This document shows positions 3,601-53,900 of a stretch of DNA of 64,000 nt, piece after piece. Position 1 is the first letter of the stretch. Every line of letters starts with the position of its first letter. The stretch lies in assembly GCA_033439265.1 (NCBI GenBank), contig JAVTVX010000027.1, positions 8,943,001-9,007,000 of the forward strand, in the 5' to 3' direction. The translations under genes and the position numbers were made by a program. The DNA comes from Dillenia suffruticosa (lineage: Eukaryota; Streptophyta; Magnoliopsida; Dilleniales; Dilleniaceae). The notes under the pieces are model-generated. The model searched no databases and had not been told where the DNA came from. It saw only the letters and a program-made list of their open reading frames with translations.

Positions 3601-6600
3601 AGTTCGGAGCCTTGACTCTTTATGTGCTTTCTCTTTCAAATGTTTCTTTCATAATCCTTTCTGCCTCCAAACCCCCTTTAATCAAGTTTATTTGAAAAGT
3701 AAATATTTTCACTGAAATTATAGGTTTTATTTGGTGTGTCGTGCTCAACAAGATCAATACAAATGTCTTGATATTGGGAAAAGCTTTTTAAGTTTATATC
3801 ACCGGAACTTAAGGCCACTTCTTTTGACGTGGCCTTGTATCTCAAAAGATGTGGAAGTGTCTCTTTGCTATTTGTGATAATCAATGAGCTTGTGTGTTTT
3901 TGACAAAGTTAAGAGATTTAGGAGTGCGAAGAGATGATTTTCAGTTTTGGAGATTTGCCATACTGTGGTGCATTTGGAGGGAGCAAAATTTGGATTTTTA
4001 GAAATCAAATTCTTAGTCCATCTCTGCTTTTGGACAAAATTGCGTTTTTTTTTTTTTTTTTTATGTTTACCTTTAGATTTATGCTTTAGAAATATTTAGA
4101 TTATAGTCTAGAGCACTTGAAAATAATTGGCTGGCAGTTCTTTGTTAGTTTTTTGCCTTTTTCTTTCTGTTGTTCTTTTCTTCCAGGATTTCTCATCCTT
4201 TGAGCATTATGTGTTGTTCCTACTCATCCAACACAATTCCTTTTTCTATAAAATGAAAGACAAGAATCTTCTAAGAACTCAAGTTTCCAGCAACATAATT
4301 CTTTATGTAAATAGTTTCAAAATACAAATGTCTTGACATTGAGAAAACCTTTTTAAGTTTATATCACTGGAACTTAAGGCCACATCTTTTGGAAGGCCAC
4401 TTCTTTTGGCACGGCCTTGTAGCTCAAAAGATGTGGAAGTGTCTCTTTGCTATTTGTGATAATCAATGAGTTTGTATGTTTTTGACAAAGTTAAGGGATT
4501 TAGGAGTGCGAAGGGATGATTTTCAGTTTTGGAGATTTGCCGTACTGTGGTGCATTTGGAGGGAGCAAAACTAGGATTTTGAGAAATCAAATTCTTAGTC
4601 CATCTCTGCTTTTGGACAACATTGGTTTTTTTTTTTTTATGTTTTCCTTTAGATTTATGCTTTGGAAATATTTTGATTATAGTCTAGCGCACTTGAAAAT
4701 AATTGGCTGGCAGTTCTATATTAGTTTTTTGCCTTTTTCTTTCTGTTGTTCTTTTCTCCCAGGATTTCTCATCCTTTGAGCATTATGTGTTGTTCCTACT
4801 CATCCAACACAATTCCTTTTTCTATAAAATGAAAGACAAAAATATTCTAAGAAATCAAGTTTCCAGCAACATAATTCTGTATGTAAATAGTTTCAAAATA
4901 CAAATGTCTTGATATGGAGAAAAGCTTTTTAAGTTTATATCACTGGAACTTAAGGCCACTTCTTTTCGCACGTCCTTGTATCTCAAAAGATGTGGAAGTG
5001 TCTCTTTGCTATTTGTGATAATCAATGAGTTTGTATGTTTTTGACAAAGATAAGAGATTTAGGAGTGCGAAGAGATGATTTTCAGTTTTGGAGATTTGCC
5101 ATACTGTGGTGCATTTGGAGGGAGCAAAACTAGGATTTTTAGAAATCAATTTCTTAGTCCATCTCTGCTTTTGGACAAAATTGGGTTTTTTTTATGTTTA
5201 CCTTTAGATTTATGCTTTAGCAATATTTAGATTATAGTATAGAGCACTTGAAAATAATTGGCTGGCAGTTCTTTATTAGTTTTTTGCATTTTTCTATCTG
5301 TTGTTCTTTTCTCCCAGGATTTCTCATCCTTTGGGCATTATGTGTTGTTCCTACTCATCCAACACAATTCCTTTTTCTACAAAATGAACAGCAAGAATCT
5401 TCTAAGAACTCAAGTTTCCAGCAACATAATTCTGTATGTAAATAGTTTCTAAATACAGTTAAAGACCAAAATTACAACCAAGAACACTTGTATCTGGACC
5501 AAAAATATCTCTTCTTTGTTGTGTAACCACTGTTTTATGCCCTAGGCTGCCATTTTTCCCTAACCAATGGATTTCTGCACCATCACTTTTGCTCTCTGTG
5601 CGTGTGTCGGCATGTGATTTTCTTCTCTGCATATGTTGATGGAAATTTGAGAAATCAGAAGGGACGGAGAGAGCTGGGTATCCCTGTACTTCATCTGGGA
5701 TTGGGCTCAATTTCCTTGTCGGGAAAACAGGTTGAGGATGGGGAGGGAAATTGAGTTTTGGTGGAGATGGTGGTGGTGGATACTGCTGCTGCTTTGCCAT
5801 AATGATGCTGTTAGGAGCATTCAGGCCATGCAAATTTGTCATTGTGATTTTCGCCTTCTTAGAATCATTGACTACCTTTTTTTTTCTCCTTTTTTTTTGT
5901 TTAAAATTGAAAAGAATTAAATCATTGATTACCTTTTCTGCCAAAACTTTTGTGTTTGTGATAATGGTTATGAAGTGAAATGAATGTTAAATTCAGATTA
6001 AATTCCGGAAACAATGTTGGTCTAATTTACTATTGCTGCTCCAATTATGGATTTTCCAGGATGCTCAACAAGAACGATTGACATTTGTATCATCTTTGCT
6101 ACCTCTACTTGCAGAATACTCTCTTCAGCCTCCTGTTGCTGATGCCCAATCTATTGTCAGTAATCTCAAGGTCTGTATGAACTACTTTGGTGGTTGTTTG
6201 TCTTTATCTTGTTATTAAGTTATTTATTTTTTGCCATACTTAGCTGTTATGCTCTAAATGTTTATTTCGGGTTAATGTTGAATTGAAACTCCCAAGCTTG
6301 GTAAGCTGCCTGTTTGATCCCTAGCAACTGTCGAACATTAGAATAGGGTTTGGTGTTTGGTTAGTAGATGTTTCTATATGAAAAGGTGATTGTTAATGCA
6401 GAGAGTAAACAGTGAGCATTTAGGAAAGAACAGAGAGCATGTAGGAGAGAAAACAGAGAGCATGTCTATAGTCATCGAAATGCTATATTCCGATGATATT
6501 CTTTGTTAATTTTTTGGGTTTTATCTCTGTTAGTGGAAATAATTAGTGGTTATTACTTTTGATAAAGATTTCATGGGCTTTTATAGCTGATTGAAAGGTT

Positions 6601-25135: not shown

Positions 25136-25439
25136 CTTGCGGGCTAAATACCCATTTCCAGAACGCGAATTTATTATGCTTATGCTCTCCTTCTCTGTAT
25201 TGCGGCGACTCCCTGCGAAGGTTGAAGGTCGACTGCTCTCATCTCCAACAGCGAAGATCATCTATCTAAGGTAGATCATTATCCTTATGTCTCGTTTGCT
25301 TGGTTTTATTACTTGAATAGTTTATGTTTTAGGATTCTGTCATTGTTACGCGAATTCATTCTATTAAGATTCTGTTATTGTTACGCGAATTCAACATGTT
25401 AACAGCAAGCAAAATTAGGGTTTGTAATTTATCATTTTC

Positions 25440-25960
25440 TTGTCCGAATTGTTTATGTTTTATGGTTTTGAAATTGAAATTAGGGTTTTAAAATTGAAAA
25501 TTAAGGTTTTAAAATTAAAATTAGGGTTTTAAATTTAAAATTAGGGTTTTGAAATTACGATTTTAAAATTAAAATTAGGGTTTTAAATTTAAAATTAGGA
25601 TTTTGAAATTGAAACTAGGGTTTTAAATTTAAAATTAGGGTTTTGAAATTGAAATTAGGGTTTTAAAATTGAGATTAGGATTTTGAAATTGAAATTAGGG
25701 GTTTTAAAATTGGGATTAGGGTTTTGAAATTGAAATTAGGGTTTTGAAATTGAAATTAGGATTTTAAATTTAAAATTAGGGTTTTGAAATTGCAATTATG
25801 GTTTTAAATTTAAAAATAGGGTTTTGGAATAGAAATTAGGGTTTTGAAATTAGAGTTTTAAAATTGAAATTAGGGTGTTAAATTTAAAATTAAGGTTTTG
25901 AAATTGAAATTAGAGTTTTAAAATTGGGATTAAGGTTTTGAAATTGAAATTATGGTTTGT
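25440..25960 (+). repeat. Degenerate 20 bp minisatellite with TTAGGG cores
   Basis: About 25 tandem units of roughly TTAGGGTTTTGAAATTGAAA, alternating with TTAGGGTTTTAAATTTAAAA. The core resembles the plant telomere repeat TTTAGGG but the spacing is about 20 bp, so it is not true telomeric DNA. It sits between the left TIR and the transposase gene, in the presumed leader. Confidence 0.85.
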
Positions 25961-26045
25961 TGAAAACGAGTATCGATATAATATTGGATAAAAAATGGAT
26001 GTTGTGGTTGATAGCAGAATTAAATGACAAGAGTTTATTAAAATC

Positions 26046-44910: not shown

Positions 44911-47900
44911 ATGGATCGAGAAAATAGGCTTGACATTGAAAATGATGGCGGGGAGATTGAAAGATACTTGTCGGGTACCTCTGACAAAAGCTTCATCGGC
45001 AGAGAGCCACTTCTCAGGAAAAGGGTCAATACCACCTCACAGATTGCCATTGTTGGTGCCAATGTTTGCCCCATTGAAAGCCTTGACTACGAGTAAGCAT
45101 TATTGTTTACTATATTGCTTGCCATTCCCGTGTTGGGTTCTCATCTTTTTCTACATTCGAAGCCTTGATAGTTATATGCCATCTTGTTTCCTACGAATGA
45201 GAAGGCATTTCATTTGGATTTGTTATAGATGTAGTGGCTCTAAAATGGAGGACGAGGCTTATCTTATGACAAGAATTTCATTTGAGAACTTATCTTCAGT
45301 TGAGTTTGTCTAAGTAGTGCCATAGAGATTGGCGTTTAATAAGCAACCTAGGATACTCGTATAATTGGTGTCTTGATAACTACATAGTTGTAATTATTCA
45401 GGCTTTTATTTTTTTAAGAAATGGTTCAAAATTGATGGTTTCTTCTTTAGCTGATGCAATCAAGCATATGACCTTGATGGCCTTTTTCATCAGGTTTACT
45501 TGTGATATATGTGCACCAGCACTAATGAGCCCTGAAGAGGTGCTGGCTTGATGTCAGTTTGGATTCAGGAGTCTATGAATCTTGTCCTACCATTATAAGT
45601 TATGCCAACATGATCCTTGGGACTGTTACAGAAGCATATGTTGCCTTTGATACAAATATTTTCTCTAATAGTGAGTCAGTAGCGCTTTTGTGCTTTCCTG
45701 AAAAGGAAAGTGGGGCCACTGAATTTGAAGTGGTATTAGACACTATTCTAAGGTGCCGTCCTTAATTTTTGTCATAACTTGTTGAGCCTGTTATCAGGGT
45801 ATGACTAAATAAAGGTTCTATTGTTATACCAAAAGGTAAAAAAATGTGCATGAAGTATATCTTCATTTATGTGGTAGCATGAGACTTCAATTTATACCTG
45901 TCAGTAGTTTCCATTAAGGCTTTCAAAGTTCACAGTGCACACTTGGAAAACTGGCAAGTGGGATGGTCAAGCATTTGGAGCATTGCACCAATATGCTGGC
46001 ATCTAAGTTCAAGGTTATTTCTTGGCCTCCATAAGGTCAATAATATCCCCAAGCAACAGCTCTTGCATTTGCTCAAGGGTCAAGCCCACACTGGGATACC
46101 AAAATCTTAAATTCTTATTGAGTGTGAAATTTATTTTCTTCTCTTGTAGTGCCAAGCCTTGAACCATCCTGAAATAGATATCCTGGACTTAAAGGAGAAC
46201 TTATGATTGAATATGAATTAGCAATTGTGAGATCACCTTTCTCATTCGGTTGGATATTTGTCCAAACAAACTGCTTTATTACTCCAGTGCAGTTACAACA
46301 TTGCCTTTGGGACCAGGAGTGTTCGTTTGTTCCTTTTGATGTTTATCTTTTTATTCATTATGTTAATAAATGTGCAAGAGCTGATTGAAGAGTTTTCTCG
46401 GGTGTTGTAATTGAGATTGTTGAGGTATTAATAAACGTGCTAGATATAATCAATAACTATGCGAATTCTAGATTCTGAATAATTTATGGGGTGTTCAATA
46501 ACTGTCTTAAAAGCTAGCTTAAGACTGAACATGTTCAGCACTTGCCAAGAATACGGGAAAGAATTAAGACAAAATATGCTAGCTTATTGTCTAATGTAGA
46601 AATATCTTTGTATCTGTTGGTGTAAGTCGTTAATAGTCAAAAACTCAAATTAGGATCTTTCTTTTTGCCTATTAAATTTTGCACTATCGCGTACTTTTCT
46701 TTACTTAATATTCAGCTTTTATATAGTTCAGGACTTAATTTCCAGTTTGCACAGTTCCTTATGTTTGTTTGTCTTGTTTGTTTTATATCAGGATTATTGA
46801 GAATCAATTGTTTAAGCAGGATTGGAGGGCAAGCAAAAAGATTCAGATATTTCAGTATGTTGTCCTTAAATGGGCATTTGCACTTCTCATAGGGCTTGGT
46901 ACTGGGCTTGTTGGCTTTTTCAATAACATCGCTGTTGAAAATATAGCTGGCTTTAAACTGCTGTTAGTTAGTGATCTCATGTCAGAGAAAAAGTAAGCCT
47001 ATTTTCCATTGCCGTGATATAATTCTTCATTATGATGTGCCTATCTTTCATAATTTACGCCAGTAATGGTGTTCAGTTGAGTTTGAGTTCTTATATTTAG
47101 CGAGGTAATGCTGGACAATAGTCCATGACTAGTTGAAGATATTTCACAAGAGTTATCTGCATGAAATCAAACTACATAAATCACATCTTCACCTAATGGA
47201 TGGAAACTGGAGTGAGGATTCTTACAGTGTCATGAAATGCAAAACAACATTGTTTGGTCTCTGACACGGTCAATTGGAGGTTCACCGGAGAAAAGTAGGA
47301 TCATCTTATGCATGGACAAAAGGTTGGCTTCTAAGAATCATATCATTTGAAGTCATAATCATGTCTTGTCAACCTTTCTGAAAGATATTGTAGATTTTTG
47401 GTTTGAGGGGTTATGGCTTGCTAAAGTGATTGAGCAATTGATTGGATTAGGCTTAGTTCAATCTGGTGTTGGCATCATGGGGACTAACTTTAGCATTCGG
47501 ACTTCTACAGTGATTAACTCGGTAGAACCTTTTATTTGGTTAATTTGGATCATTATATCTGCTAAGTCAAGAGTAGGTTGGTGAATTGGAAAGAATTATT
47601 CTAAAAAGTGCATATTATTATAAAGAAATTTTTTAGGAGAATATTTAGAAATTAGTAAGAAAATATTTTAAAAAATAGTAGTTTTTTTTTATTTTGCTTG
47701 ATAGCTATCTTTTTAAAAATAATAATTATCTTAGTTTTGGGATTTTTCATATTATGAATGATTTTAGAATTTTGTTTTTAATAGTATATCTATTATATTG
47801 TAACCTTAATTTTTCCTATTTAGAGGGAGTATAATCAATAGAAAAGTAAGTATAATTCTTATAAAAGAAGTGTGGCAGGAAATTTGTTAGGGAACATTCC

Positions 47901-50900
47901 CAGCCATCAAACTTAGGATCTGAGAGAGGGAAAACTCTAGCAAGGGAATAGAGAAATTCCCTGCAAAGAATCCACCGACTAGATTTGTACCAGGGCTCAT
48001 ATCAATTTGGTATCACAGCCAGCCATCATGCAAAGCTCTGCAAAATGTTTTAGCTCGATGGAGAGATTCGTGAGGGAATTCGAACAGCAAATGGAGCAGC
48101 CACTGGCTAGGGTGGAGGAACTCTAGCAATCCAATGAGAAGTTGCTGTAGCAACTGTAGACAGCACTGATCTCGTTAATGGAAGGGCTTCTGCGAGAGCT
48201 GCAGGGGCGCAACAAGGTGCAACAGGTGAGGAGCAGCAGCCACACCCTTGCAGACCAAAGGGAGGAGAGTAGTCTGCTGGAAGGAGGGACTGCCATCCCC
48301 AGAAAGTACCGTAACTTCAGGGGCGCAGCAAAACCACTCAATATGGCATCAGATGGTGCGCCTCAAACCTCCTTGGCTGTTGGTCATCCTGCTCCTAAGG
48401 ATTATAGTGACCCTGAAATTGGATGCAAATTCCATTCCATACCACATCTGTCATGGTACCTCGAGACTAACTGCCCCCAGACTAAGAAGAAGAGAAAACA
48501 AAGGCATGTAATAGAAGAAAAAGTGGAAGCTGGGAAGGTTGTATCATTACCTCCAAGATGGATCAAAGAAGTCAAAGTAAAAAACTATTCTGGCAAGATC
48601 AGGTGACATCCGTACTATACAGATCCTGTTGCTGCAGTCCCATTGGTTCCATCATCCTTATTTGGCAGGCTCGCTTACCTTCCACCAGGACAAGTTATTT
48701 CTTTGCATCCAATTGTCATGCATCAACCACGGAATCCTCATTCTATTCCATCACATGTTGGGCCTTATCATTCAATCCCTGCTGTTTCATCACTTCAGAA
48801 TTGGCAAAATCAACAGGAGGCATCAGAGGGTCAAAGATCTCAAATCAGAACCAATAACAGTCTTCTCAAAGTGATCAAAACTTTTGAGATCAGATGCTCA
48901 TCATTATGATTATGAAATTTCAATGATTGGTCATGCTATCCGGCCGGATTATTGGGTTGTTCATCTCTCTCAGCCATCGGGTGATTCCTGATTCTGCGGC
49001 CCAGACATCCACAGAAGAGGGACAGATCCGTGAGTCTATTGAGAAAAGCTACATGGTTGCCTTGCAAGTGCAGTCACATGAAAACCAAATGGGGAGCAAC
49101 CTATGAAATTGCAGAATTCTGTAACATCAGTGCAATTTAATTACGTCACAAATGTGCAGCACAATTCGCTCTCTTCTTTGTCTGCATCTCTAGCATCACA
49201 GCAGAATATGATGAACTTGCTGTAGTCTACATCAAATTTGGATTCACGACAGGGAGGTTCCTTGAGTTCATTGCGGCAGGTTGCTGTTGGATCTTTGCAG
49301 CCAAATCCTGTAAGTTCTCCTCAACAAGCAAGTGTGAACACCATGACATCCCTGAGTGCGGTAAATGTACTGCAGTCAAATGTGAATCAGCTTCAGGCAT
49401 TTCTAGTTTGCTTCAACAGCAGCATTTGAAGCGCCAGCTGGAGCAGAATTCGATGCAGAGCCAACAACTTAAACAACTTCAACAGTGCCATCAGAGGCAC
49501 CGACATATGATGCAACAAAAACAGCAAATGATGCAACAGCTTCAGCGGCACTTGCACCAAGAAAGTAAGCAACAGCAGCCTTCACAGATCTAAGGACACC
49601 ATATGCCATAGATTCATCACATGAATGACGTGAATGATATGAAGATGAGGCAAATAGGTGTCCAACCAGGAGCCTTTCAACAACATCATTTAGCGGCCCA
49701 GAGAACTGCTTATCACCATGAATAGTTGAATTAGGAGCTCCATTTCTTATTTCGTCTCCACAACTTCTTCGGGTAGTATCGCTGCTGATCTCTCAGAATC
49801 CTTTGCCTCAGAATGACCAGCAAAATCTTTTAACGTCGATCATAAAAGCAGGAACATCTTTGCAATCTGCTAGCTCACCTTTTGTTGTCATCCCCTATGC
49901 CTGGGGATTCTGAGAAGGTCAGTTTGGTGTTTTCTCACTTGTGAATACCGGAAAGAGTGGACATGAACAGACAAGTGGTGCAGCAGCATCAGCTCCATCC
50001 CTTGCCATTGGTAATCCTGGGATGTCAGCATCACCCTTGTTTGAAACTATGGTAATGCATCAACCTTGGTCTTTGGCAACTTAAAGAGTTTCAGAGCAGC
50101 CTAGGGAGTGCCTTATGGAGGTGGTCATATCAATGTCACAAAAGACATTAAGCACTTCAGTCAGTGACACTGGATCAGTTGTCAGTATGATTGACAAGAT
50201 GGCAGGATCCGCACCAGGTAATGGATCACGAGCTTCGGTTGGTGAGGTCTTAGTTGCCATGACGAAGTGTCGTTTGCAAGCCAGAAACTTTGTCACTTAG
50301 GATGGATATGGGGAAAAGAAAGATTAGGCATACAAGCACAATGCCTTTAAATGTTGTGTCATCAGCTGGTCTGGCTGGTCTTACAAATATTCCCAACATT
50401 AAAGCTGTAAAACGCACACATGAGCTAGCTGCCAAGATGGGATTTCACCAAGATCCTGAATTTGCCCCACTTATAAATATGTTTCCAAGTCAATTAACAA
50501 CTGACCTAGCAATCCAGTAGAAGCCATTCAAAGCCCCACTTCATCTGGACGCAGTTGGTAGGGAAGTAGATGAACATGGAAATGTCATAAATGTGCCCAT
50601 TACATATGCTTTTGCTTTCAATTGCCAGATGGGCAAAGGAAGGACAGCCATTCTGATGGCAGAGTCAACCTCACTTAAAGAGCAAGTGGAGGCTAAGGCT
50701 AGGGATCTCGGCCAAACGAAGCTGCGTATAGAGAAACTTGAAGAAAAGGAGACAGTGGCAAGTGCAAGTGTTTAAGAACTTGTGCCAGTCATTGCTGTTG
50801 CCAAAGAAGAAATTACTAGATGGAAAGTGGCTACAGAACAAGAGGCTGCACCAGGTAAAGCTGCTGAGCAGGAATTTCTGGGATAGTGGGCAGCTCTCCA

Positions 50901-53900
50901 TCAGGAACTTGAAGAGGCTAAGCAGGGTATGATAAAGTCCAAAGAAGAGGATGAGGGTGGGGACTTCTTGAAGTTCTTGAAGACTTGAGAAGGCCCATTG
51001 TAAATTCGAGTTTAAGGACAAACTCTTTGTTCAGGAGGTGGAGTAATGACATTTACAATGCATGTATATCATTGGAAAGAATTATTCTAGAAAGTACATA
51101 TCACTAGAAAGAGATCTTCTAGGAGGACATCGAGAAACTAGTAAGAGGGAGATATTTTAGAAAAATAGTAATTTCCTTATTTTAGTTGATAGCTATTTTT
51201 TTTTTTTAAATAGTAGTTATCTTAGTTTTGGAATTCTTTCATATTAGGAACGATTTTAGGAGTTTGTTTTTAGTAGAAAATCTATTATATTGTAAACCCT
51301 AGTTTTTCCTATTTAAAGGCAATTTGATTAATAAAGAAGTAAATCTAATTCTCATAAGAAATGTGATAGGAGACTTGTTAGGGATCCCCAACCTAGAGGG
51401 AAAACTCTAGCAAGGGAAGAGAGAAATTACGTGCAGAGTATCCATTGACCAGATCATGTACTAGGGCTCATATCTATTGGATTGCACTAATTCTGTTTAT
51501 AGACACCTTTAGTGTAAATGCAATTCAAGTATGTGTACATTGGCATTGAAATATACAAGCAAGGGCATATATCGATGCATAAGCATGCAGAATGAAACTT
51601 TTTTGGGTCCAGCACCAACAAAAGAATTAGAGTGCATTCCAACCAATCTAATGCTTCTCTCTATCTCTCTCTGATTATGTGGTTGAAGAGCTTTTCTGGT
51701 TCCTCATTAACTTGTTGCACATTGCATTTCTGCTTCACAACGTTCACAAAACTTAGATATTTTCTTTTTTGAGCTTTGAAAAATTCAATTCTACTGAATA
51801 AATGCTGTTAGGTTTGAATCTTTTTTGTGTTCATTAGTACTCTCATTGAGCAGAGCAAAAATGGGTTCTCGTTTTGTTCCATTTCACTTTGCCCTTCCAT
51901 TTCATCTTATCTACGTGTAATTCACTGATGTCATGAAAAATCTGAATCCGGTCAGTCATTTTTTTTTTAATTTAAGTTCCCAAATACATAAAAAGGTAGT
52001 AGCTGTTGTAAATGCTTTATATTTTCTATACTTGGTAGTCAAATGTCCACTGTAATGTTGGTAAATGATGTAGCCAGCTGGCAAGTTGTTTTCCTGATCT
52101 CTAAAGATGATTGTGTCATGATTATGGCTCCAGTGCAGATATTACCTGGCTTTTGCTGCATATGCTGGTTGCAATTTAGGTCTTGCAGCTGCTGCAGCTG
52201 CTCTTTGTGCTTATGTTGCTCCTGCTGCTGCAGGGTCTGGCATTCCTGAGGTTAAAGCTTATCTCAATGGTATTGATGCTTATTCCATATTAGCTCCAAG
52301 TACTCTCTTTGTGAAGGTAAGAAAGCATTTTTTCCCCTTTATGAAGACCAAAATGCACTTAACCTAATTGTACATTGTTTTTATGTTGCTAGGCTATTCC
52401 CACATTATTCTCCCTTTAATTTTTATTTTTTAATTGGCAGATTTTTGGTTCCATTCTTGGCGTTTCTGCTGGATTTGTGGTGGGTAAGGAAGGTCCTATG
52501 GTACACACAGGTGCTTGTATAGCGTCTTTACTGGGACAAGGGGGTTCCCGCAAGTACCGTTTGACTTGGAAGTGGCTTAGATACTTTAAGAATGATAGGG
52601 ATAGGCGAGATTTAATCACTTGTGGAGCTGCTGCTGGTGTGGCTGCTGCCTTTCGTGCACCAGTAGGTGGTGTCCTCTTTGCCCTTGAAGAAGCTGCTTC
52701 ATGGTGAACCCTACACTCTCTCTTTCTGCATGCATGTGTTTCGTTTCTATGATGCACAGTACCTGCACTCAAGCATTTGTGCATGCATGCTCCCTGTGCC
52801 CTCTAGTACTAGTGTGTTTGTTGCAGAGAGTGTAATTTTACTGGTTGAATAAGGAAAAAGATGTGTTACACTTGGTAGATAATGTGTTTCCTTGAGCAGA
52901 GAGAAAGTATTTACAGAATCTGTTGAGCATGTTTGTGGCTGGATAAGGCCCAACTTCGGTTTTTTGACGAACATGAGAAATCCTACTTAGAGAGTGTTTA
53001 TAATGCTTTTCCATGATAATCTCATGGAGCTTGCTTGCTGTCTTCTGAATTGTGCTTCTCCTACAACCTACGCTCTAGTTCTTCTAGTTTTTTGCTCATC
53101 TTCTAAGAGAGGAATTGTCATACTTGATGTGATACAGGTGGCGGAGTGCACTTCTTTGGAGGACATTTTTCACAACAGCCATAGTTGCTATTGTTTTGAG
53201 AGCATTCATTGAATATTGCTGGAGTGGTAGCTGTGGACTATTTGGGCAAGGTGGGCTGATAATGTACGATGTTAGTTCAGCTGAGGCTACATACAGTGCC
53301 CCAGATTTGTTAGCTGTGATCCTCCTGGGAGTTATTGGAGGCATATTTGGAAGCCTATATAACTATCTTGTGGATAAGGTCCTTCGCACTTATGCCATCA
53401 TTAACGGGTATGTTCAACCTTTCTTTTATTATAATTGTTTTGACAGAAATCACTGCATTGATTTTTTATTTTTTATTTTTTATTTTGTGAAAAGATTTTT
53501 AGGTAGTGAGATAGCACAAATATGTGTCGACATGTGCACACTATACTGCATTGGCACTTCTAAAAGTGGTGATGTCCGTGTTGGAGTAGGACACTATATT
53601 CAGACATGATATGATACTACCACTTGTAACTCATGGTAATAGATTTTAACTTTTCCGGGCAACCATTTCCATGTCCTATTGTTTCCCATGTCCTGTGTTC
53701 CTTTTTGATCTTCAGAATCAGCAGACCTCCCACAACGGATAGCAAGCAACTTAGAAATTTGAAAGGTAGATAGAAAGAAATATAGTTAAACACCTATCAC
53801 TGCTGTGGTCTCCGTACTGTTTTGACCATACATATCTGTGTTAAGATCAGTACATGGTTTGACCTGATTGATTCCATTGGGACCTTGCTTTGCAACAATG

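Follow-up and report, generated by a model that had tools for sequence, protein, structure and literature searches.

How does a single retroelement come to hold intronless pieces of five different host genes, and by what route and in what order did they arrive? The question is raised by a stretch of 64,000 nucleotides from Dillenia suffruticosa (GCA_033439265.1, contig JAVTVX010000027.1, positions 8,943,001 to 9,007,000; hereafter the window, whose own numbering we use throughout), in which 47582-51475 is an old, non-autonomous long terminal repeat (LTR) retrotransposon lying inside an intron of a CLC-type chloride-channel gene. An earlier note, made from the letters alone, had read this segment as a captured-gene retroelement, and that reading is borne out: the LTRs form a family, the donors are separate intron-bearing genes, and the same joins recur in a second copy, on C29, which is flanked by an exact target-site duplication. 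We consider it probable that this is a non-autonomous family similar to maize Bs1, whose middle was filled in rounds by splicing together with template switching.

The outline of the element leaves its class clear. Its 5' LTR (47582-48004) and 3' LTR (51047-51475, from the LTR pair alignment with ends compared against sister copies) are identical at 336 of 398 aligned bases (84%; Kimura two-parameter distance 0.178), and both the paired repeats and the coordinates first given for the element hold; like the other parts of the element and the CLC-type exon placed below, they lie on the forward strand. By eye, and in comparison with sister copies, the 5' LTR is without about 17 nt directly after its first TGA. 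Behind it stands the primer-binding site TGGTATCACAGCC (48008-48020, read from the sequence), which we take to be a near-match to the initiator Met-tRNA, and the polypurine tract AGGAGGTGGAGTAA (51033-51046) adjoins the start of the 3' LTR, so that primer site and purine tract sit beside the repeats as described. Paired direct repeats of a dispersed family, with these two sites adjoining them, make this an LTR retrotransposon. In the three forward frames of the interior we found no retroelement enzyme (no Pfam match at E ≤0.1), which agrees with what the earlier note had reported, and with no reverse transcriptase or integrase of its own the element appears not to be an autonomous one. Possible target-site duplications flank it, GTTGG at 47577-47581 and ATTGG at 51476-51480; since they agree at only four of five bases, target-site duplication is unproven from the window copy alone. 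Upstream, 46802-46993 matches Arabidopsis CLC-a chains (phmmer, E 4.7e-18), and marks a CLC-type exon ahead of the host intron; the gene had been named CLC-c, and the match supports its CLC type.

Between these sites the interior runs from left to right as leader, PRP3/RDM16, MBD-like, DUF7725, MED15a, PRP3 again, paladin, a coiled-coil piece and a tail. The leader (48028-48320) is the element's own, being common to the family in genome matches, and its translation opens a coiled-coil-like open reading frame (ORF); the leader of sister copy L031 gave no Pfam gag match, its best weak match, below the cut-off (E 0.0046), being to a coiled-coil family. The left part of PRP3/RDM16 follows at 48321-48399, from the start of host exon 2 (residues ~214-236), and the right part lies at 50364-50599, from exon 3 (residues ~361-449, by protein search and host loci); tblastn aligned 48328-48396 with PRP3 residues 214-236 and 50335-50598 with residues 361-449. 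PRP3 is therefore present twice, not once as first inventoried, and 48328-48396, formerly part of the MBD-like fragment, is PRP3. What remains of that fragment (48400-48630) does have the same sequence in host genes, on C10. The piece at 48627-49071, which could previously be described only as His/Pro/Gln-rich, is real and now has a name: it derives from a DUF7725 (PF24851) protein, residues ~366-511, by protein search and host loci. MED15a occupies 49063-50369, and protein searches confirm both it and PRP3, whilst the paladin-like phosphatase piece (50594-50650, right edge approximate) is recognised alike by Pfam PTPlike_phytase and by host exons. The coiled-coil piece (50651-50933, edges approximate), presumably At3g49055-like, is also real and is repeated in the genome (41 matches; here and below, genome searches score the best candidates only, so that copy numbers are lower bounds and loci may be missed). 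Last comes a coding-looking tail (50934-51032), again the element's own and common to copies in which EF-Ts replaces the coiled-coil piece.

Do these pieces come from one gene or from many? Protein searches identify the MED15a, PRP3/RDM16 and DUF7725 pieces, with Dillenia turbinata as the top match in each, and host PRP3 exons are up to 97% identical to that species. The paladin identity rests on the Pfam match plus host exons; the MBD piece has its counterpart in host genes, its tentative family name coming from a weak Pfam match (E 0.16), and a protein search that covered this piece as well returned no MBD protein. When the genome was searched with the interior and with each fragment, the donors fell at separate loci, as matches split by introns: PRP3 on C16 and C34, MED15a at two places on C8 and one each on C21 and C10, DUF7725 at two places on C10, MBD at two further C10 places apart from these, and paladin on C17. 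Even the nearest pair of donors, DUF7725 and MBD on C10, have over 1 million bases between them. A single host gene as source is ruled out, as the five donors match separate host loci, and so is a processed pseudogene made by a LINE, given several donors within paired LTRs.

The window copy is without one MED15a intron (~134 nt, at 50124), two DUF7725 introns and one MBD intron. For PRP3 and paladin the window's pieces are too short to cover the introns tested, and absence was read in sister copies: the PRP3 intron is missing from L043 and L048, the paladin intron from L032, L039 and L045. What the element carries is host gene sequence copied without its introns. This bears on the possibility that the pieces were taken up as DNA, by a Helitron or Pack-MULE, within unrelated dispersed repeats. 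Such capture is on record, the excerpted text of Baucom 2009 (PMC2774510) counting 1194 Helitron captures in maize and 462 by other DNA transposons. Here, however, the introns are absent from the element copies, the repeats belong to a dispersed LTR family, some sister copies of which have exact target-site duplications, and the one inverted repeat listed in a scan of 46500-52500 is 23 nt long with one arm outside the element. Contradicted by both the intron loss and the C29 copy, DNA-level capture is in our view most improbable.

The element is not a lone oddity. At least 43 genome matches were returned for the 3' LTR (best 40 of 507 candidates scored), at least 74 for the interior (best 40 of 269) and at least 40 for the leader (best 40 of 209). 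We retrieved the stretches surrounding 20 LTR matches and compared them with the window element: the leader is matched to ~48290 or beyond in 16 of them, and at least part of the tail (from ~50934) is present in the same orientation in 15, with differing middles. The window element belongs to a large family with swapped cargo; copies that share its LTRs are dispersed, and carry different host pieces. By eye, exact 5-bp target-site duplications flank three of 14 other loci (L034, L040 and L042, the LTR end of L042 being altered); at L031, L036 and L050 four of the five bases match, and the remaining eight loci have no duplication. The C29 copy has TGGAG exactly on either side and the same joins as the window copy, split by two later insertions of ~0.3 and ~10 kb. 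As these joins recur there, the finished chimera was mobile, and it occupies two sites in the form of an LTR element. A one-off element is excluded by the many family copies, and a chance pairing of unrelated dispersed repeats by the LTR family together with the joins and target-site duplication on C29.

The spread of this family is not recent. Fourteen further LTR pairs, drawn from 13 loci, have diverged by K 0.149-0.213 and the C29 pair by 0.193, and such high divergence across pairs points to one old wave. Substitution rates of 6.5e-9 and 1.3e-8 would put the age of the window copy at ~14 and ~7 million years respectively. Some further features of the copies were seen along the way. The ~10 kb insertion on C29 spans C29:8451617-8461847, near query position 2035, and two more long copies of largely the same arrangement lie at C18:9740498 and C4:3973972-3976267. 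At L038:3870-6620 three LTRs stand in series, like two elements with a common middle LTR, and a ~1 kb repeat, 71-79% alike, lies next to several element copies but outside their LTRs, at L032:1-3300, L040:1-1600 and L045:4930-5900 (oriented), and also upstream of the MBD gene at C10:25.31M.

Sister copies also reveal something of the order in which the cargo arrived. PRP3 runs uninterrupted through residue ~450 in L043 and L048, and the genome search that located the host PRP3 genes lists further loci with contiguous PRP3, which means that the MBD-DUF7725-MED15a block replaced the middle of a pre-existing PRP3 piece. The PRP3 piece predates this block, and capture was layered. A join from PRP3 to MED15a, common to L031, L041, L044 and L050, could be either a later deletion or a separate switch. 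Other copies bear other cargo: SAC3/GANP (top E 1.2e-22, in L045), EF-Ts (E 1.9e-8 in L044 and 3.2e-7 in L069), and in L032 a first gene ('gene X') with no Pfam match. In L033, from oriented position 6319 onward and past the MED15a piece, an open stretch, either within the element or beyond it, resembles by eye an RRM-type host gene.

What kind of event made each join? Allowing for a few diverged bases, the leader-PRP3 join coincides with the beginning of exon 2 in host PRP3, and five copies that lack PRP3 depart from the family sequence at nearly the same base of the leader. The PRP3-MBD join falls at a host MBD exon start, and PRP3 there reads AAG/GTATCT, which is donor-like. These two left edges, of four tested, lie on host exon starts and so point to splicing. 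By eye, the paladin piece is also missing a GT..AG stretch internal to a host exon. The remaining joins were judged by their overlaps, compared with random breakpoints: 4 nt at MBD-DUF7725 (P 0.019, left side only counted), 9 nt at DUF7725-MED15a (P 0.00013), and 6 nt at both MED15a-PRP3 and PRP3-paladin (P 0.0023 each). Microhomology of 4-9 nt at four of the seven inner joins tested supports template switching there. The serial template switching first proposed is therefore upheld at these four and not at the other three, and the splice-type edges are new relative to that reading.

Several observations weigh against a combination of splicing and switching. The DUF7725 left edge is 8 nt within an exon, and at that of MED15a coding continues leftward with no exon start. 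The breakpoints were placed by eye, and three overlaps are without significance: 2 nt at PRP3-MED15a (P 0.17), 1 nt at PRP3-PRP3 (P 0.43) and 3 nt at the private L036 join (P 0.06). No clear remnant of the element was found at these donors: intron 1 of PRP3 in the host genes on C34 and C16 matches nothing in the set of element copies, and in the 2.5 kb upstream of either MBD exon a 40-nt stretch like the L048 3' LTR (82.5%, E 7e-4) is too short to be decisive, whilst longer matches hit sequence outside element copies. No host donor was recognised for the coiled-coil piece among its 41 genome matches (40 of 47 candidates scored), and no autonomous partner with intact pol was identified among the family stretches examined.

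Most joins also keep frame. Judged against the frames of the host genes, this holds for 26 of 30 junction instances, a count that excludes the MED15a-PRP3 join of the window, which by eye is also in frame, and the leader, tail, coiled-coil, EF-Ts and SAC3 joins, which were judged from translations only. The out-of-frame instances are two in L033 and one each in L034 and L064. There are nine distinct joins; seven occur in at least two copies, and each of these seven keeps frame in the majority of the copies that have it, for which chance would give ~(1/3)^7, and of the private joins that of L036 is in frame and that of L034 out of frame. The copies that were translated now contain stops or frameshifts. 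We would tentatively suggest, as a possibility somewhat short of an even bet, that a repeatable cycle of splicing and then switching let the family build up one frame from leader to tail, and that frame-keeping copies spread, in-frame fusions of host exons were selected, and the products were once translated.

Sense-strand joins that mostly keep frame, two of them with left edges at exon starts, could also be expected of a host chimeric gene, formed by exon shuffling or trans-splicing and captured once as a ready-made mRNA. Yet the five donors have their host matches at separate places, the inner joins are not at exon edges, and among the best candidates scored there is no intron-bearing locus with two neighbouring pieces. 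Nor would a single capture account for sister copies that carry PRP3 alone (L043, L048) or PRP3-MED15a (L031), and we regard such an origin as improbable.

We posit instead capture in rounds, by splicing plus template switching. The family kept its LTRs, primer site, short leader ORF, tail and purine tract, and the copies scanned apparently encode no pol. In a round, a transcript initiated at the leader would have been joined to a host exon by splicing, whether after read-through or in trans, fixing the left edge; the chimeric RNA would then have been packaged alongside host mRNAs and element RNA in the particles of another element, where reverse transcriptase, travelling from right to left, may have changed template, frequently at short stretches of matching sequence. 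In-frame joins would have been favoured, perhaps as long untranslated stretches would expose RNA to nonsense-mediated decay, or alternatively because the fusion protein served the element in some way. Could the captures have been made in separate family members, and merged mainly by recombination between co-packaged element RNAs rather than by several host-mRNA switches in the same round? The recurrence of cargo pieces in many copies, in varied combinations, would suit this. However, in the readable retrieved copies, a subset, the piece after the leader is PRP3 or an L032-type first gene and never MBD, DUF7725 or MED15a, and we think such merging unlikely, if a serious contender.

Where would the enzymes have come from? 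With no intact-pol partner identified, supply of proteins in trans, as the earlier note had it, stays an inference. L046 has no Pfam match at E ≤0.001 in three forward frames past its leader, and L069, downstream of a C13 leader match, is another EF-Ts copy. At L034:4094-7149, Ty1/copia pol domains (gag_pre-integrs, SH3, RVT_2) lie in sense between the MED15a and PRP3 pieces; self-comparison found no LTRs flanking this segment, which is either a nested remnant or a capture.

Parts of this scheme are familiar from other systems. In the transduction of oncogenes by retroviruses, read-through and splicing onto an exon set the left edge, and later edges arise as reverse transcriptase switches templates; the splice-type left edges and the probable switching at later edges here are alike. 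Unlike that case, this is a plant LTR element, with several host mRNAs per chimera and no clear remnant at the donors. Bs1 of maize, likewise an LTR element with intronless pieces of several host genes, forms a chimeric gene from three of them in the partial text of a review (PMC13317346), whereas the window copy holds five host-matched donors and one unmatched piece, with more donors in sister copies; its family differs further in a PRP3 interrupted by later captures and in splice-type edges. The excerpts of Baucom 2009 (PMC2774510) describe 425 maize LTR elements with gene fragments, from at least 189 captures, and under that study's own conditions no element with more than one standard nuclear gene; these too are LTR elements bearing host gene pieces, and the window copy, in contrast, carries five donors. 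Abnormal template switching was proposed for Triticeae LTR elements by Sabot and Schulman 2007 (PMC1950507), whose complexes, in the portion available, fuse two parent elements, whereas the Dillenia family joins host mRNAs. A literature search (titles and openings of abstracts, with subscription journals mostly uncovered) returned no plant LTR element with more than three donors.

Elsewhere in the window there are two repeat arrays. One, at 3756-5480, consists of three tandem copies of a ~555-580-base unit whose 300-nt blocks are 81-95% alike; the other, at 25424-25998, is AT-rich, with units of ~20 nt, and includes 20 overlapping register copies, the others being 63-82% identical to the reference.

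In most cases, capture of genes by LTR retrotransposons has to be deduced from an end product that holds a single donor. In this family, sister copies in other cargo states make the order of capture partly readable, and the kind of each join too, and through join counts over the whole family a model of splicing plus template switching becomes testable for cellular retroelements. The joins that keep frame raise the question of why frame is preserved. If a splice-then-switch cycle with selection on frame did operate, this family would have been a natural exon-shuffling machine.

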